A stretch of 64,000 nucleotides of DNA from contig JAYJMM010000038.1 in assembly GCA_037349105.1 (NCBI GenBank), positions 2,826,501 through 2,890,500 on the forward strand, read 5' to 3'. The notes under the pieces were generated by a model. It was not told the origin of the DNA, made no database searches, and saw only the letters and a program-made list of their open reading frames with translations. Positions 1 through 19,840 of the stretch are shown one piece after another. The DNA is from Limnomonas spitsbergensis (lineage: Eukaryota > Chlorophyta > Chlorophyceae > Chlamydomonadales). A program made the translations under genes and the position numbers. How positions within the stretch are numbered: position 1 is the stretch's first letter; each line of letters opens with the position of its first letter.

Positions 1-806
1 TTCTGCCTCATCCCCAGTCCCTCCCCAGCCCACCTGGAAATTGAGCAGCATCTGCCTTTTCTACACCATCAGGTCTAGGGTTTAGGGCATCATCCTTACA
101 GCCCCACCCCCTCCACTGCCCTTCCAGGGGATTTCTGCCATCCTCCCCCTCCCGTACCTGCCCACCTGGAAATTGAGCAGAGCCGGCCTTGTCTCCACCC
201 TCATGTCCAGGGGTTAGGGCTTCCGCCTTGCAGCCCCAGCCCCTCCACTACCCTTCCAGGGCATTTCTGCCATCCTCCCCCTCCCTTACCTGCCCACCTG
301 GAAACTGAGCAGAGCCGGCCTTGTCTCCACCCTCATGTCCAGGGGTTAGGGCTTCTGCCTTGCAGCCCCACCCCCTCCACTGCCCTCCCAGAAACTTTCT
401 GCCATCCCCCCTCTCCCCCTCCCACCTACCTGGAAATTGAGCAGGGCCGGCCTTGTCTCCACTCTCCACCCTCAGGTCCAGGGGTTAGGGCTTCCACCTT
501 GCAGCCCCACCCCCTCCACTGCCATCTCAGGGAATTTCTGCCATCCCCCCTCTCCCCCTCCCACCTACCTGGAAATTGAGCAGGGCCTGTCTGGTCTCCA
601 CCTTCTGATTTAGGGCTTCCACCTTGCAGCCCCAACCCCTCAACTGCACTCCCAGAAACCTTCTGCCATCCTCCCCCTCCCCTACCTGCCCACCTGGAAA
701 GTGAGCAGGGCCGGCCTTGTCTCCACCCTCAGGTCCAGGGTTTAGGGTATCTGCCTTGCAGCCCCAACCCTTCCAGAGAATTTCTGCCATCCCCCCTCCC
801 ACCTAC
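1..806. repeat. Intron array of decayed pyruvate kinase exon 8 donor junctions
   Basis: Six or more copies of about 100-150 bp. Each holds, on the minus strand, a degenerate end of exon 8 (CTGCTCAATTTCCAG followed by GTGGGCAGG or GTAGGTGGG) and a C/T-rich intron tail. Copies end near 46, 175, 306, 439, 578 and 704; the true junction is at 807. The exon part has drifted (GCCGGC in place of CAGACAGG), so these look like old tandem duplicates and not extra exons. Confidence 0.8.
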
Positions 807-885
807 CTGGAAATTGAGCAGAGCCTGTCTGGTCTCCACCTTGGCCAGGATCTTGGTGTTGATCATGCCAATGGAGTCCAGGAAC
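807..885 (-). CDS. PYK: Pyruvate kinase exon 8 (catalytic Lys block; gene continues left)
   Basis: 79 nt: one base plus 26 codons, FLDSIGMINTKILAKVETRQ and then ALLNFQ. TKILAKVE carries the conserved catalytic Lys and the metal-ligand Glu. The donor is CAG|GTAGGT. The next exons, with the ADP and PEP site residues and the C-domain, lie outside the window. Confidence 0.9.
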
Positions 886-1216
886 CTGCAGGGGGTCGAC
901 AGAGCCAACACACTCAACCACTGCATGAGCATGCAAGGGGACAAAAGAGCCAAAACATTCAGCCATTGCATGATAATGCAGGGGCAGGCTCGCAGCCAAC
1001 ACACTCGGTCATTGCATGTGCATAAGGAGGGACGGCATAGCCAACACACGCGGTCATTGCGTGGGCGTGCGGGGGAGAGCACGCAGCTAACACTCAGCCA
1101 TTACTTGTGCATGCAGGGGGATAGCACTCAAATAACATGAGCAAACCATGATCAGTGCTGTATTTGGCGTGCATGGGGGAGTGCACGAGACTTGCATGGA
1201 TGCATGGATGCATGAC

Positions 1217-1305
<89 letters not shown>

Positions 1306-2859
1306 GCGCACACATAGGGAGAGTTTTCGAATAACATGGGCAGTCCATGATCAGTGCTGTGTGGCGTGCATGGCCAGCGCAGCATGAGGGTGTGCATGGA
1401 TGCATGAGCAAGCAAGCGAGCAAGCGCAGCATGAGGGTGTACATGGATGCATGAGCAAGCAAGCGAGCAAGCGCAGCATGAGGGTGTGCATGGATACATG
1501 AGCAAGCAAGCGAGCAAGCGCAGCATGAGGGTGTACATGGATGCATGAGCAAGCAAGCGAGCAAGCGCAGCATGAGGGTGTGCATGGATGCATGAGCAAG
1601 CAAGCGAGCAAGCGCAGCATGTGGGTGTGCATGGATGCACGAGCAAGCAAGCGAGCAAGCGCAGCATGGGGTGTACATGGATGCATGAGCAAGCAAGCGA
1701 GCAAGCGCAGCATGAGGGTGTACATGGATGCATGAGCAAGCAAGCGAGCAAGCGCAGCATGGGGTGTACATGGATGCATGAGCAAGCAAGCGAGCAAGCG
1801 CAGCATGAGGGTGTGCATGGATGCATGAGCAAGCAAGCGAGCAAGCGCAGCATGAGGGTGTGCATGGATGCATGAGCAAGCAAGCGAGCAAGCGCAGCAT
1901 GGGGTGTACATGGATGCATGAGCAAGCAAGCGAGCAAGCGCAGCATGGGGTGTACATGGATGCATGAGCAAGCAAGCGAGCAAGCGCAGCATGGGGTGTA
2001 CATGGATGCATGAGCAAGCAAGCGAGCAAGCGCAGCATGGGGTGTACATGGATGCATGAGCAAGCAAGCGAGCAAGCGCAGCATGGGGTGTACATGGATG
2101 CATGAGCAAGCAAGCGAGCAAGCGCAGCATGAGGGTGTACATGGATGCATGAGCAGGCAAGCGAGCAAGCGCAGCATGAGGGTTTACATGGATGCATGAG
2201 CAAGCATGCGAGCAAGGGCAGCATGAGGGTGTACATGGATGCATGAGCAAGCAAGCGAGCAAGCGCAGCACGAGGTGTACATGGATGCATGAGCAAGCAA
2301 GCGAGCAAGCGCAGCATGAGGGTGTGCATGGATGCATGAGCAAGCAAGCGAGCAAGCGCAGCATGAGGTGTACATGGATGCATGAGCAAGCAAGCGAGCA
2401 AGCGCAGCATGGGGTGTACATGGATGCATGAGCAAGCAAGCGAGCAAGCGCAGCATGAGGGTGTACATGGATGCATGAGCAAGCAAGCGAGCAAACGCAG
2501 CATGAGGTGTACATGGATGCATGAGCAAGCAAGCGAGCAAGCAAGCAAGCAAGCGCAGCATGAGGTGTACATGGATGCATGAGCAAGCAAGCGAGCAAGC
2601 GCAGCATGGGGTGTACATGGATGCATGAGCAAGCAAGCGAGCAAGCACAGCATGAGGTGTACATGGATGCATGAGCAAGCAAGCGAGCAAGCGCAGCATG
2701 AGGTGTACATGGATGCATGAGCAAGCAAGCGAGCAAGCGCAGCATGAGGTGTACATGGATGCATGAGCAAGCAAGCGAGCAAGCGCAGCATGAGGGTGTG
2801 CATGGATGCATGAGCAAGCAAGCGAGCAAGCGCAGCATGAGGGTGTGCATGGATGCATG

Positions 2860-2906
<47 letters not shown>

Positions 2907-3448
2907 GCAGCATGAGGTGTACATGGATGCATGAGCAAGCAAGCGAGCAAGCGCAGCATGAGGTGTACATGGATGCATGAGCAAGCAAGCGAGCAAGCAC
3001 AGCATGAGGTGTACATGGATGCATGAGCAAGCAAGCGAGCAAGCGCAGCATGAGGTGTACATGGATGCATGAGCAAGCAAGCGAGCAAGCGCAGCATGAG
3101 GTGTACATGGATGCATGAGCAAGCAAGCGAGCAAGCGCAGCATGAGGGTGTGCATGGATGCATGAGCAAGCAAGCGAGCAAGCGCAGCATGAGGTGTTCA
3201 TGGATGCATGAGCAAGCAAGCGAGCAAGCGCAGCATGAGGTGTACATGGATGCATGAGCAAGCAAGCGAGCAAGCGCAGCATGGGGTGTACATGGATGCA
3301 TGAGCAAGCAAGCGAGCAAGCGCAGCATGAGGTGTACATGGATGCATGAGCAAGCAAGCGAGCAAGCGCAGCATGAGGTGTACATGGATGCATGAGCAAG
3401 CAAGCGAGCAAGCGCAGCATGAGGTGTACATGGATGCATGGATGCATG

Positions 3449-3487
<39 letters not shown>

Positions 3488-6400
3488 TCGCGCACGTGCA
3501 TGCAGGCCTCAGACTCCCAGCTTGTCATCAGGCCTCCCCTTTCGGGGCGGCTCAGATCTCCAAGGTGAACAATAATTTAGCTGTATGGAATATCATCATA
3601 GGCGAGGCCATGTGTACAGAACTGCTTGATCTCTCGTGTGCTTAGCCTGCAATTCCGCAATATCACAGCCAACGGACGTGAGGGGCTTGGTGCAGCAAGC
3701 TCTGCTGTGCGGGCCTCCAGCTTAACTTGTGTCCCATCAACCCGCTGGTGGCCAAACAATAGCCGGTCTCAGGAAGTGGTCTGGCTCATTTGCACTGAAG
3801 CAAGGGCTGGTGCATGTGTGTGCTTGCATGCAGGCGTCTTCTTGCAGACCTCAGTCTTCCCAGCTTGGTGCAGCAGCCTCTGTTGCAAAGGCCACCGACC
3901 AATGTTGTGCATCCATCGGCCCAGCAGTGGCTGACAGCAGCTAGTCTAAGGCAAATGTCTGGTACATGTGTTTGCTTGTGTGCAGGTGTTATCTTGCAGG
4001 CCTCAGTCTTCCCAGCTTGTCATCAGGCCTCCCCTTTCGGGGCGGCTCAGATCTCCAAGGTGAACAATAATTAGCTGTATGGAATATCATCATAGGCATG
4101 ACCATGAGTGCACGGGTGTGCATTGACAGAGCGCATACATGGAATATCATCATAGACATGACCATGTGTACATAACTGCTCATTCCAGCATGCTTAATCT
4201 GAGGGTCGGTCACAATCGCTCTTTTGGGCGTGACGGTCAGCGTCACACCCTACTGTGAGGCGTATCCTGCGTTTTGAGAGCTGCCTTCTGGATAGTATGC
4301 GTGTCGATGTGAGGGCGTGACACACCAGGACAGGGAAGCCAAGTGATAGATCGGGCGAAATGCAAGTGAAAAATGTGGAAAAGCGTGACGCGTCACGGAC
4401 ACCGTTTCGTGTCTGTGCGTCATTCTACTATTCTGCTTCATCGCGGCTTGGTTCAGCAGGCTCCGTTGCTTAGGCCACCAACCAATGTTGTGTCTCCGTC
4501 GGCCCTGCAGTGGCTGCCAGCAACTGGTCTAAGGAAGTGGTCTGGTGCATGTGTATGCTTGCATGCAAGCGTCGTTTTGCAGGCCTCAGACTCCCAGCTT
4601 GTCATCAGGCCTCCCCTTTCGGGGCGGCTCAGATCTCCAAGGTGAACAATATTTAGCTGTATGGAATATCATCATAGGCGAGGCCATGTGTACAGAACTG
4701 CTTCTTCCAGCGTGCTTCCGCTAACAAATCGCGACATCGCGGCCAACGACGGTGGGTGGGCTTGGTTTCAAGCCAGTCACTGTTGTGCCCTGTCGGCCTA
4801 GTGATAGCCGCCCAGCGGCCGGCTCATGGGTTTATGGTCTAATTTGTACGCCATTAAACACCGGTGCATGCTGGTGCATGCAGGTGCATGCTGGTGCATG
4901 CAGGTGCATGCAGGTGCATGCTGGTGCATGCAGGTGCATGCTGGTGCATGCTGGTGCATGCTGGTGCATGCTGGTGCATGCTGGTGCATGCTGGTGCATG
5001 CTGGTGCATGCAGGTGCATGCAGGTGCATGCAGGTGCATGCTGGTGCATGCTGGTGCATGCTGGTGCATGCTGGTGCATGCTGGTGCATGCTGGTGCATG
5101 CTGGTGCATGCTGGTGCATGCTGGTGCATGCTGGTGCATGCTGGTGCATGCTGGTGTATGCTGGTGCATGCTGGTGCATGCTGGTGCATGCTGGTGCATG
5201 CTGGTGCATGCTGGTGCATGCTGGTGCATGCTGGTGCATGCTGGTGCATGCTGGTGCATGCTGGTGCATGCTGGTGCATGCTGGTGCATGCTGGTGCATG
5301 CTGGTGCATGCTGGTGCATGCTGGTGCATGCTGGTGCATGCTGGTGCACATACATGCATAATCTTGCAGACCTCAGACTCCCAGCTTGTCATCAGGCCTC
5401 CCCTTTCGGGGCGGCTCAGATCTCCAAGGTGAACAATAATTTAGCTGTATGGAATATCATCATAAGCATGACCATGAGTGCACGGGTGTGCATTGACAGA
5501 GCACATATATGCCTGAGATCTTCTTCAGCGCACTTTCAGCTACATTGCGGCTACATTTCAGCTACACCCAGCCTGCGGCAAGGGGAGACTTGGTGCATCG
5601 AGCCTGCTGCATGGGCTATAAACCAGAGGCTCCTCAGCATGTGGTCCCCATTGGGAGGGGGGGATGGCTGGCCAGCGCTCTGCCAAAGAAGGCGGGAAGA
5701 AGAAGGCAAGGAGCAGACAGAACTGGCCGCCGCAAGCGTCACCAACCACTCCGATCCAACCTTGCGTATGTCAGCGGCCACTGGCTCAAGACAGTCAACC
5801 CTCGACCCCTCCTCTCTGTAGACAATCACTCCCACCTGTCCCCAAACCCTGTTCACACTCACTCCCACCTGTTCCTAAAACCCTGTTCACACTCGCCCCC
5901 ACCTGTTCCTAAAACCTGCTCCCAAACCCTGTTCACACTCACCCCCACCTGTTCCCAAAACCTGTTTCCAAACCCTGTTCACACTCGCCCCCACCTGTTC
6001 CTAGAACCTGCTCCCAAACCCAGTTCACACTCGCCCCCACCTGTTCCTAAAACCTGCTCCCAAACCCTGTTCAAACTCGCCCCCACCTGTTCCTAAAACC
6101 TATTCCCAAACAATGTTCACACTCACCCCCACCTGTTCCTAAAACCTGCTCCCAAACCCTGTTGTTCACACCCACTCCCACCTGTTCCTAACCCCTCTTG
6201 TTCACACTCACTCTCGTGCCTCCACCACATCCCCGGCGCAGCGTGCGTAGCTGAGGTTGATGAAGTCGATCTCAAACTCCGCACCCAGCTGCTCAATGCA
6301 GTGCTTGTCCCACTCACATAGGATGGGCAGCTCATTCTGGGCAGGGAAGAGCAGGTCAGGTCAGGTCAGGTCAGGTCAGGTCAATTCAGGTCAGGTCAGG

Positions 6401-9400
6401 TCAGGTCAGGTCAGGTCAGGTCAGGTCAGGCCAGGCCAGGCCAGGTCAGGTCCGGTCAGATTGGGTCAGGTCCGGTCAGGTCGGCGGGAACGCGTTACTT
6501 CATATGGGCAGTTCATTCTGGGCAGAGCAGGTCAGGTCAGGTCAGATCAGGTCAGGGCGGCAGGGTCAAGTCACTTCAGGATAGGTATCTCATTCTGGGC
6601 AGAGCAGGTCAGGTCAGGTCAGGTCAGATCGGGTCAGGGCGGCAGGGTCAAGTCACCTCAGGATGGGCAGCTCATTCTGGGCAGGGCAGGGCAGGGCAGG
6701 TCAGGTCACCGGGAACGCATCACTTCATAAGGGCAGTTCATTCTTGGCAGATCACGTCGGGTCGGGTCAGGTCAGGGCGGCATGGTTGAGTCACTTCAGG
6801 ATGGGCAGCTCATTCTGGGCAGAGCAGAGCAGAGCAGAGCAGGGCCGGATGTCAGGGTCGCGATCCTACGAGGCCGCTTGACTCATTCATGGGCGGGGCG
6901 GGGCATCAGGGTCGATATTATGTCATGCTTATGCATAATGGACGACGACAGGCAAGTGATTTCTCTCACATCACCCTAATCTCCGTTCACACACTCGCGG
7001 ATGACACAACCACAGTCTCAACAGTCTCAGCACACACACAGACCCTGGCCTCACCTGCTCATTGCTGAGCCCGTCACCGCGAGACCTCTCGGCGTGGAAG
7101 ACACAGAGTAGGCCCTCCAGCGTCGAGTTGTTCTGCAGCACAAAGGGATGAAGGGTGTAGGGGTTGAGCACTCAGGGTTCAGGCCCTTGGGAGTCGAGTT
7201 GTTCTGCAGCAAGAAGAGATTCAGGGAATAGGTGGCATCCCTCACGGATCAGACCCTCCAGCGTGGACTTGTTCTGCAGCACAAAGGGATGAAGGGTACA
7301 GGGGTTGAGCACTCAGTGTTCAGGCACTTGTAAGTCGAGTTATTCTGCAGCAAGAAGAGATTCAGGGTATAGGTTGCATCTCTCACGGATCAGACCCTCC
7401 AGCGTCGAATTGTTCATCAGCACAAAGGGATGAAGGGTGTAGGGTTCAGCACTCAGGGTTCAGGCCTTTGGGCGTGGCATTGTTCTGGAGAAGGAAGATA
7501 TTCAGGGTGTAGGGTGAAGCCCTCAGGGTTCAAGCCCTCCAACGTGGTGTCCTTATGAAGCATGAAGGGAGGAAGGGTGTATAGGGTGAAGTGTTCGGGG
7601 TTCAGGACCTCCAGCTTGGTGTTGTTCTCTCTGGGACACACAGGGGGCAGGAACGCCGAAGCTGCTGCCATGCCCTCGATTCTCCCTCTGCCACCACCGC
7701 CGCTTGCCAAGGCGCTTGGGGCCGACAAACAGGCTCCTGCCCCCTACCCCTACTCTTCCATGCCCCCAGTTCTCTTGGGGCCGACAAACAGGCTCCTGCC
7801 CCCTACCCCTACTCTTCCATGCCCCCAGTTCTCTTGGGGCCGACAAACAGGCTCCTGCCCCCTACCCCTACTCTTCCATGCCCCCAGTTCTCTTGGGGCC
7901 GACAAACAGGCTCCTGCCCCCTACCCCTACTCTTCCATGCCCCCAGTTCTCTTGGGGCCGACAAACAGGCTCCTGCCCCCTACCCCTACTCTTCCATGCC
8001 CCCAGTTCTCTTGGGGCCGACAAACAGGCTCCTGCCCCCTACCCCTACTCTTCCATGCCCCCAGTTCTCTTGGGGTCGACAAACAGGCTCCTGCCCCCTA
8101 CCCCTACTCTTCCATGCCCCCAGTTCTCTTGGGGTCGACAAACAGGCTCCTGCCCCCCTACCCCTACTCTTCCATGCCCCCAGTTCTCTTGGGGCCGACA
8201 AACAGGCTCCTGCCCCCTACCCCTACTCTTCCATGCCCCCAGTTCTCTTGGGGCCGACAAACAGGCTCCTGCCCCCTACCACTACTCTTCCATGCCCCCA
8301 GTTCTCTTGGGGCCGACAAACAGGCTCCTGCCCCCTACCCCTACTCTTCCATGCCCCCAGTTCTCTTGGGGCCGACAAACAGGCTCCTGCCCCCTACCCC
8401 TACTCTTCCATGCCCCCAGTTCTCTTGGGGCCGACAAACAGGCTCCTGCCCCCTACCACTACTCTTCCATGCCCCCAGTTCTCTTGGGGCCGACAAACAG
8501 GCTCCTGCCCCCTACCCCTACTCTTCCATGCCCCCAGTTCTCTTGGGGCCGACAAACAGGCTCCTGCCCCCCTACCCCTACTCTTCTATGCCCCCAGTTC
8601 TCTTCCTGCCCTGCCTAGGTTCTCCACTTGTAGCCTTTAGCCCCTTCATAACCACCTTAGCTATCCGCACACAAGCCTAGGCCAGGCAGATGACCACACA
8701 CTCCTGAGCCACACACATGACTCAGTGCTCTCCCACCACCGACACCACGTCCATATATAAGGAGCTGGACTCCCCAACCTCCCCACACACACCTGGGCCA
8801 CACAGATGACCTCACCCACACCTGGGTCACACAAACGAGGTCCATTCATAAGGAGCTGGACTCCCCACCCTCCCCCCACACACACCTGGGCCACACAGTG
8901 GACATCCTCCCCCTCCACGGACACCACGTCCAGGTACAGCGAGCTGGACTCCCCACCCGATGCCAGGTAGCGCGCAATGGACACAATGTCTCCGGGCTTG
9001 GCCATGGATGTGAACTTGGGGTACATGATGGGCAGGGTGCTGCGGGGGGGGGAGGGGGGTAGGAATCGGGGTTGGGGGGGGAGGGTGGGGATAAAAGGGG
9101 GGGGGGGGAGTGGTCCGGGCTGGGGGGGGAGGAGGGGGATGAAAGGGGGGATGGGGGGGGGAGTGGTCGAGGATGGGGGGGGGGGGGGATGAAAGGGGGG
9201 GGGGGCAGTGGTCGGGGATGGGGGGGGAGGTCGGGGATAAAGGGGGGGGGGGTATAGTGGTCGGGGATGGGGTGTAGCAGTGGTCGGGGATGGGATGTAG
9301 CAGTTGTTGGGGATGGGGTGTAGCAGTGGTCGGGGATGGGGTGTAGCAGTGGTCGGGGATGGGGGATAGCAGTGGTCCGGGATGGGGGATAGTAGTGGTC

Positions 9401-12400
9401 GGGGATGGGGGGTCGCAGTGGTCGGGGATGGGGGGTAGCAGTGGTCGAGGATGGGGGGTAGCAGTGGTCCGGGATGGGGGATAGCAGTGGTCGGGGATGG
9501 GGGGTAGCAGTGGTCGGGGATGGGGTGTAGCAGTTGTTTTGGATGGGGGGGAATAGGGAGTGAGGCCAAGGGGGGGATTATGGAGGGGCACGGCATGGTG
9601 GTTAGCTGGTGGCTGAGTCAACATGCTGAGCGATTTTTCTACGCCTTCGCTTTTCTTCTTATTCCAAGGTCCCTGATAGTCTCGAGGCCATGCGGGCAGA
9701 CACCACCCATGCATGCTCCATGCTCGACCCTTGCATGCGCCATGCTCGACGACACCTCAGCTGGGCCACAGGTGGATTTGAAAAGGCTCCTTGCATGCTC
9801 CATGCTCGACCCATGCATGCTCCATGCTCGACCCATGCAAGCGCCATGCTCGACCCATGCATGCTCCATGCTCTATGCTCCACCCATGCATGCGCCATGC
9901 TTGAAGACACCTTGCCGGGCCACAGGTGGATTTAAAAAGGCTTGCCAGTTGACCTGCCTTCGATGGATTGGACACACACACCTGCCAATTGACGATTGGC
10001 CCTCCATGAAAGGATGGACCCATAGGTCATGACTCAGGACCCTTATTAGACAGGCCGCTATCCGCTACTTTGTTCAGGGTTCAGGGTGTTATTTAACTGC
10101 GGAGCGACGCCCCTTGGCAAGACCAGCGGGGGTTTGACCCAAACGTTTTGCAGGAGGTCCCCTGCCGAGGGGGTCCTGCTCTAATCCCTGAATGGATGGG
10201 TTACCACCTTCCTTAGCTTTTACCTTCTCACCTAAATTTCCACTAGGTACGAAAATATAATATTCATATATATTTGCCTATGTGACTCACACTTCCTCTG
10301 CCATTGCATCCTCCCGGGTCGTGATGACCAGCTTCTGCAGGAGGTCCCCTGCCTAGGGGGGTCCTGCCCTAATCCCTGAATGGATGGGTCACCACCTGCA
10401 ACTCACACTTCGTCTGCCACCGCATCCTCCCGGGTCGTGATGACCAGCTTCTGCCCCGCGACGATCTCGTGGCGGCCCAGCACCCAAGGGTAGCCCTGGT
10501 CGTTCGCTTGCCACTGCAGGCCAGGGGGAGGGAGAGGGGGAGACACTCAGGAGAGGGGGGGGGGGCACCCAAGGGTAGCCCTGGTCCTTCGCTTGCCACT
10601 GCAGGCCAGGGGGAGGGACAGGGGGAGACACTCAGGAGAGAGTGGGGGGGGGGGGCAGAACCCTAGGGTAGCCCTGGTCGTTCGCTTGTCACTGCAGGCC
10701 AGGGGGAGGGAGAGGGGGAGACACTCAGGAGAGGGTGGGGGCACCCAAGGGTAGCCCTGGTCCTTCGCTTGCCACTACATGGATGTGGACGGAAAGAGTA
10801 AAACCCTTAACCCTTCAGCTCTCACAATATTTGCTTACTTGTCCTATGTTTGTATGTCTGTATATGTGGACTCGTGTCCCATGTTTATTCGTGTGTTTGT
10901 ATGTTTGTCTATTTTTTATTTTATTATTTTATTAATTTGCCACTCACCTGGCCGCGGATCATCAGCTCGCGGCCCATAGTGTCTACGGCTGTGGCACACA
11001 GGCGGCGTGTGCGCTTCGTAGCTTCCTGCAACATGCCAAAGAAGGGTCCAGGGTTAGGGGGGTCAAGCTAACACATTAACGTGTTCACACAAGCAAGGGG
11101 AGACGTGTGTGCTTCGTAGCTTCCTGCAACATGCCAAGAGGGGTCCAGGGTTAGGGGGGTCAAGCTAACACATTAACGTGTTCACAAGCAAGGGGAGACG
11201 TGTGCGCTTCGTGGCTTCCTGCGACATGCCAAGAAGGGTCCAGGGTTAGGGGGGTCAAGCTAACACATTAACGTGTTCACACAAGCAAGGGGAGACGTGT
11301 CCGCTTCGTGGCTTCCTGCGACATGCCAAGAAGGGTCCAGGGTTAGGGGGGTCAAGCTAACACATTAACGTGTTCACACAAGCAAGGGGAGACGTGTCCG
11401 CTTCGTGGCTTCCTGCGACATGCCAAGAAGGGTCCAGGGTTAGGGGGGTCAAGCTAACACATTCACGTGTTCACACAAGCAAGGGGAGACGTGTGCGCTT
11501 CGTAGCTTCATGCGACATGCCAAGAAGGGTCCAGGGTTAGGGGGGTCAAGCTAACACATTAACGTGTTCATACAAGCAAGGGGAGACGTGTGTGCTTCGT
11601 AGCTTCCTGCGACACGCAAATAAGGGTCCAGGGTTAGGGGGGTCACGCTAACACATTCACTTGTTCACACAAGCATGGGGAGGCTAGTTATTCAGGGTGT
11701 ATCCGTGGACGGTCGGACAAGAGGGGTGAGGTAGGACACGCAGGCACTACTAGCAGCAGGGGTCCAGGGCAGTCACTTGCATCATCACTGGCAACGCATT
11801 TTCTGGTTTGATTCATTTCATGTCCAGTCCCAGGATGGACATTAACTCTGCAGCTTCATAACATGCAATTGCAAAGATCGTGCATTCATACAAGTGAACG
11901 TCTTACTCTACAAAAGCTTTGAACCAGTACCATGAACCTCCACCCTTTGGGCGCTCGTAATTCTTTAGCAACCAGTATAACCAGAAAGAGGACATGAGGC
12001 AGCCCGGAGACAGGGGTTCAGGGATTGTGAAATCCATGCCTCGTGGAATGAGCAGGGAGGACAATCATGACATGTGGTAGGAAAGCACCCCCCCCTCCCA
12101 CTACACACACACACCTCCCACCATACACACACCTTCCACCACACACACCTCCCACCATACACACACCTCCCACCATACACACACCGCCCACCACACACAC
12201 CGCCCACCATACACACACTTCCACCACACACACCTCCTACCATACACACACCTTCCACCACACACACCGCCCACCACACACACACCTTCCACCACACACA
12301 CACACATCTAAGCACACACACACACACACACTGAGGGTCGAGGCATGCACTCCCATGGGTTTCAAATATATCAATAGTCAGAGCCTAGGATACGGCATGG

Positions 12401-15400
12401 CATAGAACCCCAGGTCACAGATCCCATAGCAGGGGCAGCTGCCACTGCCGATTCAAGCTGCTTCAATTCAGCTTCCATTCGGCTAAATCTCGGCCGAAGG
12501 CAGGGCGAACCTGGCACAGCAAGCCCTACAGCTTGGGCCGATTAACGCTTGGTTCCCAGCGGCCCAGTGGTGGCTCGCCACGGTGGTCAGATGCACAATA
12601 TAATAACAACCCGCCAGCCCTGCCCTGCCCCGCCCCGTCCCGCAAGCCACTCTCCCACACCGGCCCCGCAAGCCCCCCTCCCCGCTTGCAGTGTCCAGCA
12701 CCTTCCCCTCCTCTCAACCGCAGGACAGTGAGCGAATTGCAGTGAAAGTCCAGCGGCCCCCAGGTCAGGTCAACGCAGCTGCTGACCATGCCGGCCAAGC
12801 AAGCCCCTCTACCTGCCCCGACCTTGGCCATCCCTCTACCTGCCCTGCCCCGTCCAGCCCCTTCCCCTCCTCTCAACCGCAGGACAGTGAGCGAATTGCA
12901 GTGAAAATCCAGCTACCCCAGGTCAGGTCAACGCAGCTGCTGACCATGCCGGCCAAGCAAGCCCCTCTACCTGCCCCGACCTTGGCCGTCCCTCTACCCG
13001 CTCTGCCCCGTCCAGCACCTTCCCCTCCTCTCAACTGCAGGACAGTGAGCGAATTGCAGTGAAAGTCCAGCGGCCCCCAGGACAGGTCAACGCAGCTGCT
13101 GACCATGCCGGCCAAGCAAGCCCCTCTACCTGCCCCGACCTTGGCCATCCCTCTACCCGCCCCGCCCCGTTCAGCACCTTCCCCTCCTCTCACGACGGTG
13201 AACGAGTTGCATTGAGAGTCCAGCGGACCCCAGGTCAGGTCAACGCGGCTGCTGACCATGCAAGCCATGCAGGCCCCTCTACCTGCCCACACGATTCCCG
13301 CAAGCCCTTGTACCCGCCCCTGCCCGACCTTGCTTGTCCCTCTACCCAACCCAACCCCCTGCCCCCCGCCCTGCCCCCCTCGCCCCATGCCCCTCCCCAC
13401 CCTGTGCCCCTCCCCACCCTGTGCCCCTCCCCACCCTGTGCCCCTCCCCACCCTGTGCCCCTCCCCACCCTGTGCCCCTCCCCACCCTGTGCCCCCCCCC
13501 ACCCTGTGCCCCGCCCCACCCTGTGCCCCGCACCACCCCATGCCCCGCACCACCCCATGCCCCGCCCCACCCCACCCCATGCCCCGCCCCACCCCATGCC
13601 CCACCCATGCCCCGCCCCACCCCATGCCCCGCCCCACCCCATGCCCCACCCCCTGCCCCACCCCCTGCCTCGCCCCGCCCCACGCTGTGCCCCGCCCCCG
13701 CCCCGCCCCGCCCCGTGCCCCGTGCCCCGCCCCGCCCCATGCCCCGCCCCACCCCATGCCCCACCCATGCCCCGCCCCACCCCATGCCCCGCCCCATCCC
13801 ATGCCCCACCCCATGCCCCACCCTGTGCCCCGCCCCACCCCGTGCCCCGCCCCGCCCCGCCCCGTGCCCCGTGCTCCGTGCCCCGCCCCGCCCCGCCCCG
13901 TGCCCCGTGCTCCGTGCCCCGCCCCGCCCCGCCCCGCCCCGTGCCCCGTGCCCCGCCCCACCCTATGCCCGCCCCGCCCCGTGCCCCGCCCCGCCCCGCC
14001 CCGTGCCCCGTGCTCCGTGCCCCGCCCCGCCCCGCCCCGTGCCCCGTGCTCCGTGCCCCGCCCCGCCCCGCCCCGCCCCGTGCCCCGTGCCCCGCCCCAC
14101 CCTATGCCCGCCCCGCCCCGTGCCCCGCCCCGCCCCGTGCCCCGCCCCGTGCTCCGTGCCCCGCCCCGCCCCGCCCCGTGCCCCGTGCTCCGTGCCCCGC
14201 CCCGTTCCCCGCCCCGTTCCCCGCCCCGTTCCCCGCCCCGTTCCCCGCCCCGTTCCCCGCCCCGTTCCCCGCCCCGCCCCGTGCCCCGTGCCCCGCCCCT
14301 TCTGTTCCTTTTACCTGTAGGAGTGTGAGCGAGTTCCGGTGGAAATCCAGCGGCCCCCAAGTAAGGTCCACACGGCTGCTGACCATGCCGGCCTCCAGCA
14401 GCTGCGCCAGGATGTCTGCATCATGGATGCTGGGTCCCATGGTGGTCATCAGCTTGGTGCCTATAACACGCACAGGGTGACGTGTCAAGTGCTTTATTTC
14501 TGAAGGGAGTTTAAGGGGTACAGGACGTCGGCATCATGGATACTGTGTCCCATGGTGGTCATCAGCTAGGTGCCTAAAACACGCACAGGATGGTGTTTTC
14601 AGTGTTTTGCTTCTGAAGGGAGTTTAAGGGGTACAGGATGTCGGCATCATGGATGCTGTGTCCCATGGTTGTCATCAGCTTGGTGCCTAAACACGCACTG
14701 GATGATGTTTTCAGTGTTTTGCTTCTGAAGGGAGTTTGAGGGGTACAAGATATTGGCGTCATGGATACTGTGTCCCATGCTGGTCGTCAGCTTCATGCCT
14801 GCACTCCCTGCAGAATGCACAGGACCACATTCTGACTTTTTGAATTTAGCGCATGGTCCTGGAAAGGGTGTGAGGGGTTGGGCAGGCTGCACAGTGTGCA
14901 TGGGACAAGATACAGGGTTCTTTTATTTTGTGGAGGTTGATCAGCCCAGGGTGGCTGCACAATCCCCCAACCGCAGTCATCGACTAGGTTCCTGCAGTGT
15001 GCATGGAACGGAAAAACGTTATTTTTATTTGGGGGAGGTTGATCGGCCCAGGGTGGCTGCACAATTCCCCCACGGTGGTCATGGACTAGGTGCTTATAGT
15101 GTTGCATGGGATGCCACACTGCATTTTTTTGATGGGGGAGATTAATGGGCCCAGGTTGGCTGTATGCTCCCATGGCGGCCATTGTCATTGTGCCTGCGGT
15201 GTGCAATTGTGCATGGGATGACACGCAGGATATTTTTTGACCAAGGATTCGCATAAGCCCAGGGTGGCTGCACGCTCCCATGGTGGTCACCAGCTCGGTG
15301 CCTGATCTCAATAGCGAGGGAGAGATGGGCGGAGGTTGCAAGGACTGTGTGGGGAGGGGGGGACGCTGCACACAATGCTTGATGGCTTCAGGGGTCTGTA

Positions 15401-16252
15401 AACCTGCCCCTGCAGTATGGCCTTGCATGGAAGTGGATAATACTGAGGCCATGCCAGGCGCGGAGACCAGTCTAAGGCCAGGATGGGGGTGGCAAAGCTG
15501 AGCCGACACTGCTTTGAGCAGGTGGGGGTGGCAGTGCTGAGGTTAGTGCTTAGTAAACAGGTTTGTGGGGGCCTGCTTGGCATGTGGCACTATGGCAGGT
15601 TTCAAGTGGGCCTGAGTGTCACATGCCCTTGGTAAGCAAGCAATAGTTAGCAAGGCGATGAGGGAGCGATAAATCTGGACGAAAATGTACGGGAGGATGC
15701 AGAAGGGAGAGAGATCTCCCTCAAGGCTGGACTGCAATGACCCTGGCACTGCAAAGCGTCGGATCCTCGCGAGCGGTTGCTAAGAGGGCTTTGCTACGCC
15801 TGCGATTACAGGTGCAGCGCATCGTCCAGTGGCGGGGTGCTGTTGCTATGCATTTATGCGGGGTCGGCAAGAAGCGGTGGCGTTTTTTGATATCTTGTAC
15901 ACATAGAAGTGAGAGAGTGAGCTGATTTTCACGTGCGCATATTATGCACCGAGAGAAAACCTTTCGTTGCAGATCAGATGGCGTGAAAACGATTCTCATC
16001 GATCCCCATCGGCTTGCCAGGGACAGATCAGAGAGAAGGGGGCATATTCGTCCCAGTGTAGCCCTTGACCCCTCCATCTCTCCATTGCCTATCACCCCTG
16101 CTCCCCAACGGACCAGTAAAGACGCCATCATCGATCGAAGGCTCCAGCACGGATGTCAGGTCCAGGTTCTTGAACCAGTGAGTCTTGGCCTTGGCAGAGG
16201 ACGTACCGTCGCCGGGCAAAGCAACGTTTTGAAAGCTACCGTTCTTGATCAT
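807..16252 (-). CDS. PYK: Pyruvate kinase, divergent algal type (5' part, 8 exons)
   Basis: Pyruvate kinase converts phosphoenolpyruvate and ADP to pyruvate and ATP, the last step of glycolysis. Exons on the minus strand, in order: 16252-16114, 14460-14315, 11025-10948, 10513-10407, 9039-8886, 7132-7055, 6336-6212 and 885-807. Every junction has AG/GT signals and all phases agree, giving about 302 residues. Recognisable family blocks are TKLMTTMGPS near the N-terminus, DLTWGPLDFH, the B domain around LPIMYPKF and RYLASGGESSSLYLDV, LSYARCAGDVVEARE, and TKILAKVE, which carries the catalytic Lys and metal-binding Glu. Family Asn-Phe-Ser-His is replaced by Asp-Leu-Thr-Trp, and DTKGPE by DTMGRE, so this is a divergent clade. 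ATG at 16250-16252 is the only in-frame ATG of the first exon. The C-terminal half lies beyond position 1. Its introns are almost wholly minisatellite. Confidence 0.9.
886..1135. repeat. About 45-bp tandem repeat at the exon 8 acceptor
   Basis: Six degenerate units starting with TGCAGG and ending ACTGCATGAGCA or similar. The first unit begins at the acceptor of exon 8. The array passes into a bridge at 1136-1215 that is itself repeated, more degenerate, at 1320-1375. Confidence 0.7.
1216..1305. repeat. (CAAG)n microsatellite
   Basis: About 22 copies of CAAG with one CAAA variant. The same tetramer reappears as expansions within the neighbouring minisatellite, near 2526-2555, 2862-2908 and 3448-3487. 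Confidence 0.95.
1379..3490. repeat. 46/47-bp minisatellite, about 44 copies
   Basis: The unit combines GAGCAAGCAAGCGAGCAAGC with GCAGCATGAGGTGTACATGG and ATGCAT. Variants are GAGGTG, GAGGGTG and GGGGTG. It lies in the 5.3-kb intron between pyruvate kinase exons 7 and 8. It holds no stop codon in several frames, which creates long false ORFs on both strands. Confidence 0.95.
3503..5470. repeat. Four-copy segmental tandem repeat
   Basis: A block of about 95 bp (starting CAGACTCCCAGCTTGTCATC, with TTTCGGGGCGGCTCAGATC) recurs at 3508-3605, 4006-4097, 4586-4678 and 5375-5466. It is followed by GAATATCATCATAGGC and preceded by GTGTGCTTGCATGCAGG-like sequence. The segments between copies also match in part, so this is a tandem array of units of roughly 0.5-0.8 kb, one of which gained the 10-bp array at 4862. 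Confidence 0.85.
4862..5350. repeat. 10-bp tandem array (TGCATGCTGG)n
   Basis: About 49 copies of TGCATGCTGG, with TGCATGCAGG variants concentrated in the first third and one TGTATG variant near 5156. TGCATGCA is self-complementary, so alternating purine-pyrimidine and hairpin structure is possible. Confidence 0.97.
5820..6206. repeat. About 46-bp repeats at the exon 7 donor
   Basis: About eight units containing CCCACCTGTTCCTAAAACC and CCCTGTTCACACTCGC. The last unit blends into the true donor of pyruvate kinase exon 7 (TTCACACTCACTCTCG on the plus strand), so the unit derives from the donor-side intron sequence. Confidence 0.85.
6212..6336 (-). CDS. PYK: Pyruvate kinase exon 7
   Basis: 125 nt: 41 codons plus two bases, starting NELPILCEWDKHCIEQLG and ending INLSYARCAGDVVEAR. 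It matches the family block LP.L.EKD...I..G.....D.IA.SF.R...DV. The donor GA|GTGAGT is completed by the G that opens the next exon. Confidence 0.9.
6337..6870. repeat. (GGTCA)n array with exon 7 acceptor copies
   Basis: Runs of GGTCA and GGGCA/GAGCA are interrupted five times by copies of the first 20-25 bp of exon 7 (GGGCAGCTCATTCTGGGCAG), near 6506, 6580, 6661, 6729 and 6801. Each copy preserves an acceptor-like site on the minus strand. Confidence 0.9.
7055..7132 (-). CDS. PYK: Pyruvate kinase exon 6
   Basis: 78 nt, phase 0 at both ends: NNSTLEGLLCVFHAERSRGD and then GLSNEQ. It corresponds to the short region between the B domain and the LP.L..DK block of the family. Its first 25 bp or so are repeated about six times in the intron to the right. 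Confidence 0.85.
7133..7565. repeat. About 70-bp repeats of the exon 6 acceptor junction
   Basis: Six units after the true junction, each with a version of CCCTCCAGCGTCGAGTTGTT, CTGCAGCA and GATGAAGGGTGTAGGG. The exonic part is about 25 bp, the rest is upstream intron. The copies drift progressively with distance. Confidence 0.88.
7711..8606. repeat. 59-bp minisatellite, about 15 near-identical copies
   Basis: The unit starts TTGGGGCCGACAAACAGGCT and holds CCTGCCCCCTACCCCTACTC and TTCCATGCCCCCAGTTCTC. Only a few substitutions (CCGAC/TCGAC, CCCCT/CACT) and single extra C bases separate the copies, so the expansion is recent. It lies in the intron between pyruvate kinase exons 5 and 6. Confidence 0.97.
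8695..8885. repeat. Copies of the exon 5 donor junction
   Basis: Two duplicates of the end of exon 5 and its donor. CACCACGTCCA, GGAGCTGGACTCCCCA and ACACACACCTGGGCCACACA occur at about 8730-8805 and 8818-8900; the real exon has GAGCTGGACTCCCCACC near 8943. Confidence 0.75.
8886..9039 (-). CDS. PYK: Pyruvate kinase exon 5 (B domain)
   Basis: 154 nt: one base plus 51 codons. It contains TLPIMYPKF, KPGDIVSIARYLASGGESSS and LYLDVVSVEGEDV, matching the family B-domain pattern of PGD, RYL.SG..S and SLYL.V. The acceptor sits against the G-rich array that starts near 9040. Confidence 0.9.
9040..9545. repeat. G-rich 22-24-bp array upstream of exon 5
   Basis: The first 200 bp is nearly all G runs of 6-11. 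From 9240 the unit is GGTCGGGGATGGGG(T/G)(G/A)TAGCAGT, about 13 copies. The plus strand is dense in potential G-quadruplex runs. It is read as the C-rich polypyrimidine side of the exon 5 acceptor on the coding strand. Confidence 0.9.
9690..9950. repeat. About 22-bp ATGCTCGACCCATGCATGC array
   Basis: Around ten degenerate copies of CATGCTCCATGCTCGACCCATG, bracketed by two copies of GGGCCACAGGTGGATTT near 9762 and 9918. Confidence 0.85.
10140..10400. repeat. Duplicate of the exon 4 donor region
   Basis: CATCCTCCCGGGTCGTGATG ACCAGCTTCTGC from exon 4 is copied at about 10308-10340. The intron block AATCCCTGAATGGATGGGT occurs at 10183 and 10371, giving a unit of about 120-190 bp. Confidence 0.85.
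10407..10513 (-). CDS. PYK: Pyruvate kinase exon 4 (B domain)
   Basis: 107 nt: 35 codons plus two bases, starting WQANDQGYPW and ending VITTREDAVADE. The donor GT|GTGAGT was chosen over the overlapping GTGTGA because only it keeps phase with exon 5, giving DEVTLPIMYPKF. Exon-edge copies lie on both sides. Confidence 0.85.
10514..10790. repeat. About 90-bp repeats of the exon 4 acceptor junction
   Basis: Three further copies of CCCAAGGGTAGCCCTGGTC and TTCGCTTGCCACTGCAGG follow the true acceptor at 10513, separated by CCAGGGGGAGGGAGAGGGGG-type sequence. Confidence 0.9.
10948..11025 (-). CDS. PYK: Pyruvate kinase exon 3
   Basis: 78 nt, phase 0 at both ends, encoding EATKRTRRLCATAVDTMGRE and then LMIRGQ. 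It covers the family DTKGPE loop in a changed form: the Asp and Glu remain, while Lys-Gly-Pro reads Met-Gly-Arg. The donor is CAG|GTGAGT. Confidence 0.87.
11026..11690. repeat. About 92-bp repeats of the exon 3 acceptor junction
   Basis: About seven further copies. Each starts with a copy of the exon 3 beginning (GCTTCGTAGCTTCCTGC on the plus strand), then ACATGCCAAGAAGGGTCC, AGGGTTAGGGGGGTCAAGC and ACACATTAACGTGTTCAC. AACACATTAACGTGTT is a near-palindrome. Confidence 0.93.
12095..12335. repeat. CA-rich simple repeat
   Basis: Degenerate units of CACACACCTCCCACCATA and CACACACCTTCCACCA. It lies in the intron between pyruvate kinase exons 2 and 3. Confidence 0.95.
12690..13262. repeat. About 165-bp repeats of the exon 2 donor junction (4 copies)
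   Basis: Units hold CTCTCAACCGCAGGACAG, GTGAGCGAATTGCAGTG and AAAGTCCAGCGGCCCCCAGG, then TGCTGACCATGCCGGCC, matching the 3' half of exon 2 and its donor. In reverse, each still resembles VSSCVDLTWGPLD. A weak fifth copy may lie at 12525-12560. Confidence 0.9.
13370..14310. repeat. C-rich GCCCC satellite beside the exon 2 donor
   Basis: Over 900 bp made of CCCCGCCCC, CACCCTGTGCC, CACCCCATGCC, GTGCTCCGTGCC and GTTCCCCGCCCC blocks. Local 19-bp and about 60-bp higher-order duplications are visible, for example 13975-14100. The minus strand could form G-quadruplexes. Confidence 0.95.
14315..14460 (-). CDS. PYK: Pyruvate kinase exon 2 (A domain start)
   Basis: 146 nt: two bases plus 48 codons, TKLMTTMGPS through NSLTLLQ. 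The Arg of SSRVDLTWG aligns with the substrate-binding Arg of the family, while the following Asn and Ser positions are Asp and Thr. Both flanks carry tandem copies of this exon's edges, at 12690-13262 and 14461-14810. Confidence 0.9.
14461..15300. repeat. Exon 2 acceptor duplicates, then a degenerate repeat
   Basis: Three copies of a unit of about 112 bp hold GGTGCCTAAAACACGCAC, TGCTTCTGAAGGGAG and CATCATGGATGCTGTGTCCC, the exon 2 start. From 14870 to 15300 four looser units follow with GATCAGCCCAGGGTGGCTGC and GTGTGCATGG. Confidence 0.9.
15301..16113. other. Non-repetitive part of pyruvate kinase intron 1
   Basis: Nothing coding was recognised. Two near-copies of CCAGTCTAAGGCCAGGATGG-like sequence surround 15470. 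This 800-bp stretch next to exon 1 is the only long part of the gene's introns without obvious tandem structure. Confidence 0.5.
16114..16252 (-). CDS. PYK: Pyruvate kinase exon 1 (start codon)
   Basis: 139 nt: 46 codons plus one base. It starts MIKNGSFQNV and ends DDGVFT plus the first base of a Gly codon. The GC bases at the start of exon 2 complete that Gly, giving FTG-TKLMTTMGP, which is the family's usual junction before the first beta strand. The context GCAGCCATGA is a reasonable start. The residues before TKLM could be a short N-terminal extension; a transit peptide is not evident. Confidence 0.82.
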
Positions 16253-16462: not shown

Positions 16463-17347
16463 ATGGGCATATTCGAGCCATCATCCGTGTCGGAAGCTGC
16501 CCCTACTGCTGCAACACCGCCATCGACATCAACGGCATCATCGGCGCCGATAGGGCCAGACGGGAAGCCGAAGAGGATATGTTGCTCATGTCCAGATACA
16601 AAGGCAAGCTCACATCGGAGGCAAACCTGTTCTCGGCGTCTCCCCGCCTCGAATTCCCCCCCCCCCCCGCTGCCTGCATGCTTGGCCTCCGATCCAGCCT
16701 CCCTTCTTGCAGCTGGCTCCATTGAGAAGCATGCATAATAAAAAAGGACGCAAATTTCCCTGGGTGTGTTCATCAGTGCAAGTGCATTCCAGCCACACAG
16801 ATGTCTCTGGTATGCCATGATGGCGGGTGCATCCATGCTACCCTATGGCTGCAGATAGTACCGCATAATCGGCCACGCAGCGACACACTCTCGATAATAT
16901 ATTTAAACTTGCGCGCCTACGCAGAAGCTCCGAGATTCCTGCGTCATTGAAAGAGGTAGGGAAACCTGCTGAAGAATGTTCCTGCTCTCGGATGGGCTGC
17001 ATGAACCTGTTGACAGAATGGTGTTGTACTGTCCGGTTCTGTTTGTTCTCCCTCTAGGGTTCAGCTCTGGGTCTTAATTTTGGTCTGAGCTTGTTGTTTG
17101 CTGCGTTACAGTGTATGTTTAGAGCCTGATTCACAGGTGTAAATACCCCTGTCTGCTACCAGAACTTATGCACTTGCTGCGCCTGGCCTCTGCCAATTGC
17201 TGCACCTTTTTGCTGATTATTGAAACCTATGATTTAAAATTACGACCCTCACTCCCCTTTGTTTCAGGCGAGGAGCATGTGTACTGCCAGGCTCTGATCG
17301 AAGCTCACAAAGCTTGCCTACGAGTGGAGGGATTCAATGTGGGTTAA
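16463..17347 (+). CDS. COX17: COX17 cytochrome c oxidase copper chaperone
   Basis: COX17 carries Cu(I) in the mitochondrial intermembrane space to SCO1 and COX11 for assembly of cytochrome c oxidase. Exons 16463-16603, 16925-16955 and 17268-17347 join in phase to 83 residues, close to plant COX17. The acidic, Ala/Pro/Ser-rich N-terminus leads to KPKRICCSCPDTK, which holds the CC copper site. Twin CX9C pairs follow: CPDTKKLRDSC and CQALIEAHKAC. The protein ends in GFNVG. Intron 1 uses a GC donor (AAG|GCAAGC); intron 2 is GT-AG. The ATG is the only in-frame Met before the motif. It is a complete gene, divergent from pyruvate kinase. Confidence 0.93.
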
Positions 17348-17432
17348 CACTTTAACACTTATCTTTTTAATGCAGGGTGGCTTAGCTGAAGGCTGGAGGG
17401 ATTCATGTGGGTTAACATTAAACAATACTTGT
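17326..17432. repeat. Duplicated COX17 stop-codon region
   Basis: GGAGGGATTCAATGTGGGTT AACA at 17326, spanning the stop, recurs as GGAGGGATTCATGTGGGTTAACA at 17396, about 70 bp on and preceded by its own polypyrimidine-AG. The gene's 3' border thus shows the same edge duplication as the splice junctions elsewhere. Confidence 0.8.
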
Positions 17433-18607
17433 TTTATGCGGGGTAGCTCCACTGCATCCTCGAACATGTTGGCCCTGAAAATGGGCCCTCATGCTGGCCC
17501 TCGAAATGGGCCCTCAAAAAACACGTTGGCAATCACATTATCCTACCAGTGAGGCGAAGTGCTCTCAATCACTTTGATCATTGTCTGAAGCAAGCCGTTC
17601 GTGACGATGAATGGCATGCCCAGTGCATGTGAGAAAGCTGGTCTTGCGGTCAGCACAGTCTATTTTAGTGTGCTTCAGAACACCCTTGGTGGGCTACCGA
17701 GAGGCCACCTCTGGATTTTATGGTAACCAAACTTTTACTGCTGGGGGTTCAAGCACCTGGGTTTGCTGCCCCCAGCCCATTTGGCGATAGGCCGTGATAC
17801 AGCTGAATCGTGGCTAAATTTTCTGGAAATTCACTCTGGTGGTCATACAGGAGTTTAAGCTGAGTCCGCATCAGTAGAGACCCTTTCAAAGGGGAAGTCT
17901 GACTATTGCTTTTAAAGCTTGACATGCACGTATGACCTGAGGCCCGACTTAAACTGCTAAAATATGCAGCATATCTCGAGACCTGTCACATTCAAAAAAA
18001 CTGATGCTCTGTAGCATTATTCAAAAGCTACGCAAAATCCCGGCAAAATTCACATGCTCACATTTGCCCTGCCCCTGCTTCGACAGGTCTGAGGTGCAGG
18101 CTGAGCTTGCGCGAGAAACAATGAGTAGCGAGCTGTAGGGTAGAGGAGTCATCGCTCTCTAGAGATACACACTATAACTTGTGATTCGAGCACGTACGCG
18201 ACTGGAGGGAAGAAAATGGTGACTTAAGCTACGGTACTTCAAGATTCGAAATTGGCATGGCATCTGACGGAGGCCTGGCAGCGAACGCGGCCTTAGTGCT
18301 TTTCCTCGCTCACTACCGTTATCCCTTGCGGCAAAGGCGTTTTTTTTGTGACACATGTTCCACATGCAGTGCACCTACCGGTACGGAATGATGTATGCAT
18401 GTATGATATGGTATGGCTTTATGGAGACGATAACTGACATGACTGTGACATGAGAGCTGTCTCAGATGTCAAAATTATATTACTGGTGTATGACCGTCTT
18501 GTAAGCAACTGGAAACCTTATGATGACTGATGGAGGTATTCAGGTATCGTGTCCATCATGGAGGCAGCTTACAGGAACTCCTTCACTTGCCTTTGTAGTG
18601 CCCTGTC
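17433..18607. other. COX17 downstream region without recognised genes
   Basis: Short local repeats (ATGGGCCCTCA... near 17480-17515) are visible. No exon chain with consistent phase was found. The COX17 3' UTR should end here; TTGTAAG at about 18496 resembles the algal TGTAA poly(A) signal but is far from the stop. Confidence 0.4.
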
Positions 18608-18743
18608 AAGGGTCTGTTACAAGGGGGGTCAAACCCGTCCCTCTAAACAGGGGCTTTCAGTGCCGGGGTAGGCACCTTTGTATTTTATGCCGGGGGGGGT
18701 CGGGGGACGGGTTCGACCCCCCAAGTGACAGGCCCCTTGCTCT
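18608..18743. mobile_element. MITE-like element with about 40-bp imperfect inverted repeats
   Basis: The left arm GGGGGGTCAAACCCGTCCCT is matched by the inverted right arm (GGACGGGTTCGACCCCCCAA), with flanking similarity AAGGGTCTGTTAC versus the reverse of GTGACAGGCCCCTT. The loop holds AGTGCCGGGGTAGGCACC. No coding capacity; target duplication not resolved. Confidence 0.7.
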
Positions 18744-19840
18744 GTCTGATTTGCGGGTGAAGGTTCTGAATATTTTCTGGCTCCATATCGTCCACAAAAT
18801 TCAACTGGGAAACCAAAGAGCTTGGGGGCTGAATACCTGTTGGTCAGCCCATGAGTCTTTTTAGCATGGCCCAGAGGTGTAATATCTACGACCTGCTGGT
18901 CCGGCACTCTGAACTGGTTTGTAAAGAGTGAAGGACTATTCGTTCTTGAGTGTGCGTGCCCTCCCTCAGCAAGATGATTCCCCATCATGTGTTTGAAATT
19001 CAGGTGAAAGCATGTGACCGGCAGTGGAAGGTCGCCAGTATGGTACCGGTACTCATGAAAAACTTTTCTGAAAAACTACAAAATCCAACATAAAAGGACC
19101 CAAAACGGAATACGCTCCGCATTTAGGTCTGACTGTCACGAAGTCTAGGTGCACAGCACGTATGGGTGGCTAGTACCGCCTTTTCGGTTTCGGATCCCAC
19201 TTAAAGTCTGTTACTTCAAATATGCTTAAAAGCCTGGCTCACCCAAGGCATTCCTTTTTTATTAAGTGTAACGAAGCAAAACACTATTTATTCTTGTAAA
19301 ATGCTATGGGATTACCTCCACCTATATATCATCAAGGCCTAAGGACTTTGTGAGTGCCCAGAGCCTGTGAGACTTCACTGTTCAGGACTCCCTCTGGTAA
19401 TACTGCAATCGTTAAGTGTTTGCATCTCTACCACTTGCTGTCGCATCTGTCGCCTTGCTTATCGCTGCCAGATAGTCTCCTGCACACTTGGTAACCCCTT
19501 GCAAAGGGCCACTAGCACCCCATGGCGCCCCAGTGGCTGCCCCAGTGATTCTGCATGGTCACTGTTTCCTCGTGACATGGTACCTACTGACCATCACAGC
19601 TATGGCTGCATCACGGTTGCCAACCTGACGTTTTCGACCACTATTTAAAATGTGAAGGGTTCCTTACTGGATTTCCTTCTAGGGTTCTTTCTGCAACTTC
19701 TCTGCTGGGGCGACCAGCAAAATAAGATTAACGTCGTCGGCTTGATTTTATATACCCAAGAACACCTAATTGCCGGCCTCTCCTTTTGTTCCTGTCCCCA
19801 CTCTTCCTTTCAGTGTCTTCTTTTCTCCCTTCTAAACAGT
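18744..19840. other. Region without recognised genes
   Basis: No coding chain or tandem repeat was recognised. GCCCAGAGGTGTAATATCTACGACC near 18868 looks like a worn fragment of the CGGCCGAG repeat family. Confidence 0.4.

Follow-up and report, generated by a model that had tools for sequence, protein, structure and literature searches.

The window analysed here is a 64,000-nucleotide stretch of the Limnomonas spitsbergensis genome (contig C38, positions 2826501-2890500, in a 260,226,709-bp assembly of 124 contigs). It carries the 5' part of a pyruvate kinase (PK) gene, and the introns of this gene contain tandem arrays whose repeated unit spans the gene's own exon-intron borders. The genome report gives 260.248 Mb in 124 contigs, the longest of 10.736 Mb, with a GC content of 54.15% and a merged mean intron length of 788 bp (PMC11228838). 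According to the same report, the assembly was made from PacBio long reads at 63x and polished with Illumina reads, and IsoSeq data exist (PMC11228838).

The pyruvate kinase gene and its border arrays

The eight exons within the window were joined by splicing by hand, with GT-AG at all introns:

807..16252, minus strand: 5' part of the PK gene, exons 1-8 (E1-E8)
16114-16252, 14315-14460, 10948-11025 and 10407-10513, minus strand: E1, E2, E3 and E4
8886-9039, 7055-7132, 6212-6336 and 807-885, minus strand: E5, E6, E7 and E8

The spliced exons encode 302 residues, and the protein is matched by the pyruvate kinases in the PDB. Its closest relative was the PK of Chlamydomonas eustigma, with 81% identity and gaps at none of the seven exon junctions (a single residue of the query, at the E4/E5 junction, was incorrect in this alignment and has since been corrected). 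The gene runs past the window edge; a spliced aligner recovered the same exons 1-8 and placed exons 9-12 at L010. A PK paralog on contig C39 mostly shares the exon structure of the C38 gene. One intron lies at residue 121 in the C38 gene (window 10407-11025) and at residue 137 in the C39 paralog (L011-L014), a difference that could possibly reflect an intron shift, or a gain and a loss, beside duplicated borders.

The eight exons were compared with the eight introns by blastn (E<=0.01; the eighth intron is cut by the window edge). All 30 matches paired an exon end with the adjoining intron on the same side, in direct orientation, and none of the 30 fell in a non-adjacent intron. A local-alignment scan with 39-45-bp edge probes, and with thresholds set from dinucleotide shuffles, detected 32 copies at 9 of the 15 PK borders in the window. 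These were both borders of E2 and E4, the acceptors of E3, E6 and E7, and the donors of E5 and E8; the same scan found no copies at the donors of E1, E3, E6 and E7 or at the acceptors of E5 and E8. The copies, hereafter decoys, were arranged as follows, all on the minus strand:

14408..15301, minus: E2 acceptor array, unit ~113 bp; decoy exon heads at 14531-14573, 14644-14686 and 14756-14798, decayed at 15265-15301
12693..13288, minus: E2 donor array, unit ~159 bp; decoy exon ends at 12722-12762, 12881-12919, 13035-13079 and 13198-13232
11006..11682, minus: E3 acceptor array, unit ~97 bp; six decoys, 11099-11123 to 11582-11606, with 25 bp of exon head
10480..10776, minus: E4 acceptor array, unit ~85-93 bp; decoys at 10565-10598, 10649-10691 and 10741-10774
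10291..10335, minus: E4 donor decoy, a single copy of 93% identity, 116 nt from the true border
8704..8830, minus: E5 donor decoys at 8793-8830 and 8704-8751
7113..7628, minus: E6 acceptor array, unit ~70/141 bp; decoys at 7163-7203, 7243-7273, 7384-7414 and 7604-7626
6507..6827, minus: E7 acceptor array; decoys at 6653-6676 and 6791-6814 within a CAGGT-rich minisatellite
28..775, minus: E8 donor array, unit ~132 bp; decoys at 694-727, 569-604, 430-462, 298-331, 166-199 and 34-67

The E2 donor array starts ~1.0-1.1 kb from E2, past a simple repeat of GCCCC type. A preliminary description of this DNA, made from its letters, had placed an array on at least one flank of each of exons 2-8, and the scan bears this out, including the arrays on both sides of E4 and at the donors of E5 and E8. 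Arrays on both flanks, which it had called frequent, occur only at E2 and E4, that is, at 2 of the 7 exons. Its arrays at individual borders were found with different dimensions: the E3 acceptor has six copies plus a partial unit rather than about seven, with a unit of 97 and not 92 bp; the E2 donor does have four copies, with a unit of 159 and not 165 bp; the E6 acceptor has four copies and not six; and the E7 acceptor has two copies at the scan threshold and not five. The range it had assigned to the arrays, 807..15300, is too short, as the E8 donor array extends to position 28.

Distribution of the border copies among loci

When the scan was applied to six PK loci, copies were found at 49 of 104 borders (48 of 104 in a repeat with fresh shuffles), whereas none of 796 pairings of an edge with a non-adjacent intron matched. 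Reverse-complement probes gave 0/104, opposite-side introns 5/92 and exon centres 6/44. The copies lay at four loci, where they marked 49 of 82 borders: 12/22 at C38 (followed to exon 12), 12/20 at C39, 10/22 at C24 and 15/18 at C20. Dropped from the PK rows were the last 4 of 16 at C38, the first and also the last 4 of 16 at C39, the last 3 of 15 at C24, 8 of 12 at C41, 5 of 15 at C20 (two very small, three terminal) and 0 of 9 at C109. The exons of C24, C41, C109 and C20 were drawn from distant queries, so that some borders are possibly a few bases off, and one C20 exon end was set from the alignment with P0004.

Two further gene families were sampled. In four kinesin loci (15 of 139 profile matches, with approximate edges), 19 of 30 edges had copies, namely 6, 8, 1 and 4 per locus, and none of 30 did with reverse-complement probes. 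A kinesin "other gene" control (11/38) was discarded as invalid because it compares paralogous exons. For TCP1 (30 of 72 exon matches, whose ends are inexact because they are profile-match ends), copies were found at 5 of 60 edges, with 0/60 in the opposite flank, 1/60 for the reverse complement and 6/60 when the probes were moved outwards. Flanks on other contigs matched in 13 of 1,536 TCP1 comparisons, and we suspect that these matches are paralogs. The generalization of the preliminary description from one gene to the introns of this genome therefore holds in part. It extends to four of six PK loci, to all four kinesin loci (one with a single edge) and sparsely to TCP1, and it does so irregularly: border arrays are widespread but uneven in the sampled loci of this genome.

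Introners and introner-like elements raise intron content genome-wide, and insertion of such an element, or of a transposon, with copying of the flanking exon edges would be another source of exon-edge sequence in introns. Some units do contain stretches with no alignable counterpart in the next copy, and several array-bearing introns share telomere-like CCCTAAA motifs. Introners, however, are dispersed as near-identical copies of one element in many genes, whereas the algal units are confined to single loci: four units (E2 acceptor, E2 donor, E3 acceptor and E8 donor) each matched their own locus only in a search of the 260-Mb genome that passes over simple repeats and very common words. Moreover, several arrays are contiguous, with no filler, and the non-adjacent pairs mentioned above gave no match. 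The dispersed-element reading was rejected on the four single-locus units, and we give it practically no credence.

Telomere-like motifs were also recorded for their own sake. Several array-bearing introns (C39, L011-L014; C20, L022-L023; C24, L015-L016; kinesin, L054-L057) are enriched in CCCTAAA and AACCCT, with CCTAAAC in 14 of 41 introns (3.2 expected) and AACCCTA in 15 (3.7 expected). In most loci, the C-rich strand of the motifs is the sense strand (41:1 at C39, but 3:3 at C24), and I5 of C39 contains a run of four CCCTAAA; in the C38 PK gene, CCCTAAA is not enriched. These motifs could be branch-point-like CTAAC sequences or telomere repeats inserted during break repair.

Unit length, placement and origin of the arrays

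At the four PK loci with arrays, the decoy nearest to each border lay at a median distance of 118.5 nt (quartiles 107.5-134), and 32 of 44 distances were within 100-140 nt (borders whose nearest decoy was >220 nt away were omitted). Of the windows with a tandem partner, 26 of 36 at exon edges vs 69 of 416 in intron interiors had it at 100-140 (Kolmogorov-Smirnov (KS) p ~1e-14, with windows inside one array being non-independent). Interior intron repeats are dominated by periods of 15-60 bp, with a smaller peak near 105-120. Exon sequence accounted for 14-79 bp of the unit at 43 of 44 borders and for 3 bp at one outlier. The build of the arrays varies: some are contiguous tandem repeats; in others, filler that does not align separates the copies, or the intron part has decayed beyond alignment. 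In the C20 gene (L022-L023), the decoys of E7 and E10 copy nearly the whole exon (78/79 and 79/79 bp); neither of them seems to carry AG directly before the first exon base. Both flanking exons were copied within 12 of 41 introns of the four loci.

The placement of arrays was also compared with chance, a check that the preliminary description had itself proposed for the whole genome. For this purpose, the arrays of ten loci were called on the intron sequence only and placed at random in the present-day introns in 20,000 simulations. Arrays with 90-145-bp units touched a border in 32 of 71 cases, with 10.0 expected, and none of the 20,000 simulations reached 32. The corresponding numbers were 7 of 32 (3.8 expected, p=0.06) for 60-89-bp units and 23 of 50 (8.4 expected) for 146-260-bp units. 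Border overlap is thus in excess in these ten loci.

This excess is what would be expected if co-transcriptional splicing, nucleosome position or R-loops caused breaks or duplications at the borders themselves. The narrow 100-140 spacing at borders, compared with the interior repeats, and the skew of the exon part to 20-60 bp favour the same idea. However, 39 of the 71 arrays of this class are clear of borders, 7 of them 64-110 nt away and 32 of them >110 nt away, and tandem coverage at donors stays level, being 0.37 next to the exon and 0.34-0.51 as far as 600 nt into the intron. At acceptors, coverage drops from 0.59 next to the exon to 0.1-0.3 at a distance of 300-500 nt, with a renewed rise far inside the few long introns. 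Furthermore, by simple geometry, a blind duplication of 100-140 bp would always span a border in a 70-90-nt intron; the share of tolerated duplications that span one would be 61% for an intron of 250 nt and 24% for one of 800 nt. The border excess can be explained without anchoring because blind duplication in short ancestral introns gives the same picture. The growth "anchored at splice junctions" of the preliminary description is consequently unsupported, given the arrays off the borders, the variable exon part and the flat donor coverage. We regard duplication directed to junctions as unlikely, and it likewise seems doubtful that such duplication, with a fixed reach of ~105-140 bp, was a main engine of intron lengthening here, taking introns from ~80 nt to kilobases via ladders of spliced-over exon edges.

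Contiguous border arrays made up 11,733 of 54,448 intron bases (22%) in the four affected PK loci and covered at least half of 9 of the 41 introns; in the window gene to exon 12, they made up 2,990 of 21,314 intron bases. PK I7, at 5.3 kb the largest intron of the affected loci, contained no exon-edge copy. The wording that the introns "are built from" border copies is too strong for these numbers. It is fair for a few introns, such as C20 I7, C20 I9 and C24 I9, where 43-60 nt are left once the arrays are removed, and not for most.

The decoys in the four loci numbered 131, of which 4 were unaligned at the splice site. Among the aligned ones, 44 of 54 acceptor decoys had kept AG and 67 of 73 donor decoys had kept GT, with a mean copy identity of 87%, which confirms that ladders of decoy splice sites are real. 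If the nearest intact decoy were used, a premature stop would result in 35 of 39 testable cases and an in-frame, stop-free insert in the other 4. Therefore, the exon-proximal splice site is likely the one normally used. In the 18 arrays with at least three copies, decay grew with distance from the border on average, as the preliminary description had it (mean rho -0.35; 13 arrays negative, 5 positive; permutation p=0.005).

The retention of splice dinucleotides might suggest that decoys are kept to tune splicing, as alternative acceptors or donors, in nested splicing or as switches of nonsense-mediated decay, since the 92% (GT) and 81% (AG) retained are not below the neutral expectation at 87% identity per base. 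A common history of the copies within an array, however, inflates these counts. Such a function is also at odds with the stops that decoy use would introduce, with the decay of copies with distance and with the discordance of 9 of the 17 borders common to two PK paralogs, and we consider it quite improbable.

It is very improbable that the arrays are an artefact of assembly or that minisatellites overlap exon ends merely by chance. Assembly does have difficulty with tandem repeats, and near-identical arrays may have been given a wrong number of copies. Nevertheless, the copies range from ~70% to 100% identity, each diverged differently, and the same pattern is found on eight contigs (four PK and four kinesin loci) of an assembly based on long reads with polishing. 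Chance overlap, in turn, is contradicted by the shuffles and the non-adjacent introns, which give none.

Taken together, the arrays are probably mirage-type minisatellites (see below) that arose by recurrent tandem duplication straddling borders, with the extra copies likely spliced out. The introns would have been short at the onset, perhaps 75-95 nt, so that a duplication of ~118 bp that touched an intron had to include an exon edge. Stretches of ~100-140 bp (a unit of ~118 bp) that happened to straddle a splice border would have been duplicated repeatedly in tandem; end-joining of staggered breaks is one example of a source of this length. Each added copy would be removed with the intron, and border copies would survive because the spliceosome is predicted to keep the exon-adjacent site. 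Duplications wholly in exons, or with a decoy too near the true site, were presumably purged. Later rounds, by slippage or unequal exchange, would move the older copies farther into the intron, and there they would decay. A short ancestral intron is suggested by the predicted proteins P0003 and P0006 of relatives, in which an additional 25 and 31 residues, equivalent to 75 and 93 nt, are placed precisely at the E2/E3 junction. This junction, the only one compared, also looks like an intron position in both, and we take the extra residues as putative retained short introns. The E2/E3 intron is 3,289 nt long in the window gene and 882 nt in the C39 paralog. In favour of growth, the 35 introns that contain border copies have a median length of 1,117 nt, compared with 379 nt for the 17 that contain none (p=0.004).

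Several points weigh against this explanation. Arrays are absent at two PK loci (0/6 borders at C41 and 0/16 at C109), so that the array process is uneven across loci. The kinesin edges are profile-match ends and may extend into the intron, and some of the 19 positive edges are possibly plain intron repeats. TCP1 copies are rare, and two of the five matches are a paralog pair sharing one decoy. The comparison of intron lengths is confounded by gene, as the two PK loci without arrays contribute 11 of the 17 introns that lack copies. The ancestral intron length is drawn from two predicted proteins, and splicing past the decoys is predicted from protein conservation and stops. Finally, small exon parts are over-represented among the units, contrary to what a fully blind process would produce, and a uniform model for the exon part was rejected (KS p=4e-6). 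This skew is not decisive because decay makes exon parts look shorter, yet it keeps an anchored model in play.

Other features of the window and related searches were as follows. One neighbouring exon was identified:

17267-17341, plus strand: COX17-like exon (Pfam PF05051, E 6e-7)

Short 13/25-bp repeats lie downstream of it at 17465-17519, and the read-through frames of window 16501-31499 gave only weak or low-complexity Pfam matches besides COX17. A 16-kb satellite of ~240 copies of a 67-bp unit occupies 39292-55495, followed by a telomere-like AGGGTTT run at 55496-55542. At C41:486888-507993 (L017-L019), PK profile matches recur over 21 kb in a manner suggestive of several genes in tandem; no border arrays were found at the 6 borders tested in this stretch. 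Viral contigs contained no PK relatives, and a plasmid collection had no match to one 151-base exon query.

Relation to mirages and significance

The original description of mirages, those of Adh3, is said to be a 2002 paper in Nucleic Acids Research. The name was given in amphioxus Adh3 to tandem repeats of intron/exon boundaries and was used again for two globins, BflGb6 and BflGb9 (PMC3087553). As the globin paper describes them, amphioxus mirages affect both 5' and 3' boundaries, keep AG/GT in many copies, have units of 10-160 bp and are unstable in length, with regular splicing undisturbed (PMC3087553). The statement in the preliminary description that no named description of such growth was known does not stand, as mirages already cover border-spanning tandem repeats in amphioxus. 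The algal arrays resemble them in that the tandem unit spans the boundary (at the 9 of 15 window borders and the 49 of 104 borders given above), both boundary types are affected (E2 and E4 on both sides) and many copies, not all, keep AG/GT. They differ in extent and regularity: mirages are known from few chordate loci with widely ranging units, whereas the alga has copies at 49 of 82 borders of four PK loci, and in kinesins, with a narrow 100-140-bp spacing. From their sequence, the algal arrays may be regarded as mirages in a new lineage, on a larger scale in the sampled loci and with a narrow unit length; their neutrality for splicing is predicted.

Two other systems share tandem duplication within genes. 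Internal gene duplications and segmental duplications of exons or introns, cited from Gao and Lynch 2009 in PMC3443670 and PMC4974935, reportedly hold entire introns plus flanking exon sequence; the algal unit, in contrast, mostly contains one border, with the two near-whole-exon copies of C20 E7 and E10. In ATP2A1 and the potato RdRp gene, tandem duplication, in potato across an intron-exon boundary, created a new intron (PMC4974935). In the alga, by contrast, an existing intron would grow and the copies stay inside it, as the E2/E3 intron position shared with P0003 and P0006 suggests. Beyond the amphioxus globin and potato RdRp papers, no border-spanning arrays were recognised in the titles and abstract openings of openly licensed PMC papers, and the results section of the L. 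spitsbergensis genome paper, in the part consulted, makes no mention of such arrays (PMC11228838).

The arrays widen the range of mirages, so far a handful of amphioxus genes, to many borders in a green alga, and their sharp unit length calls for a molecular cause. Intron lengthening is usually attributed to transposons. This genome would instead hold many locus-specific records of intron growth by small tandem duplications, which splicing would neutralise. The intact decoy ladders may also serve to test the choice that the spliceosome makes between copies: invariable use of the exon-proximal site would point to recognition across the exon in a unicellular alga.

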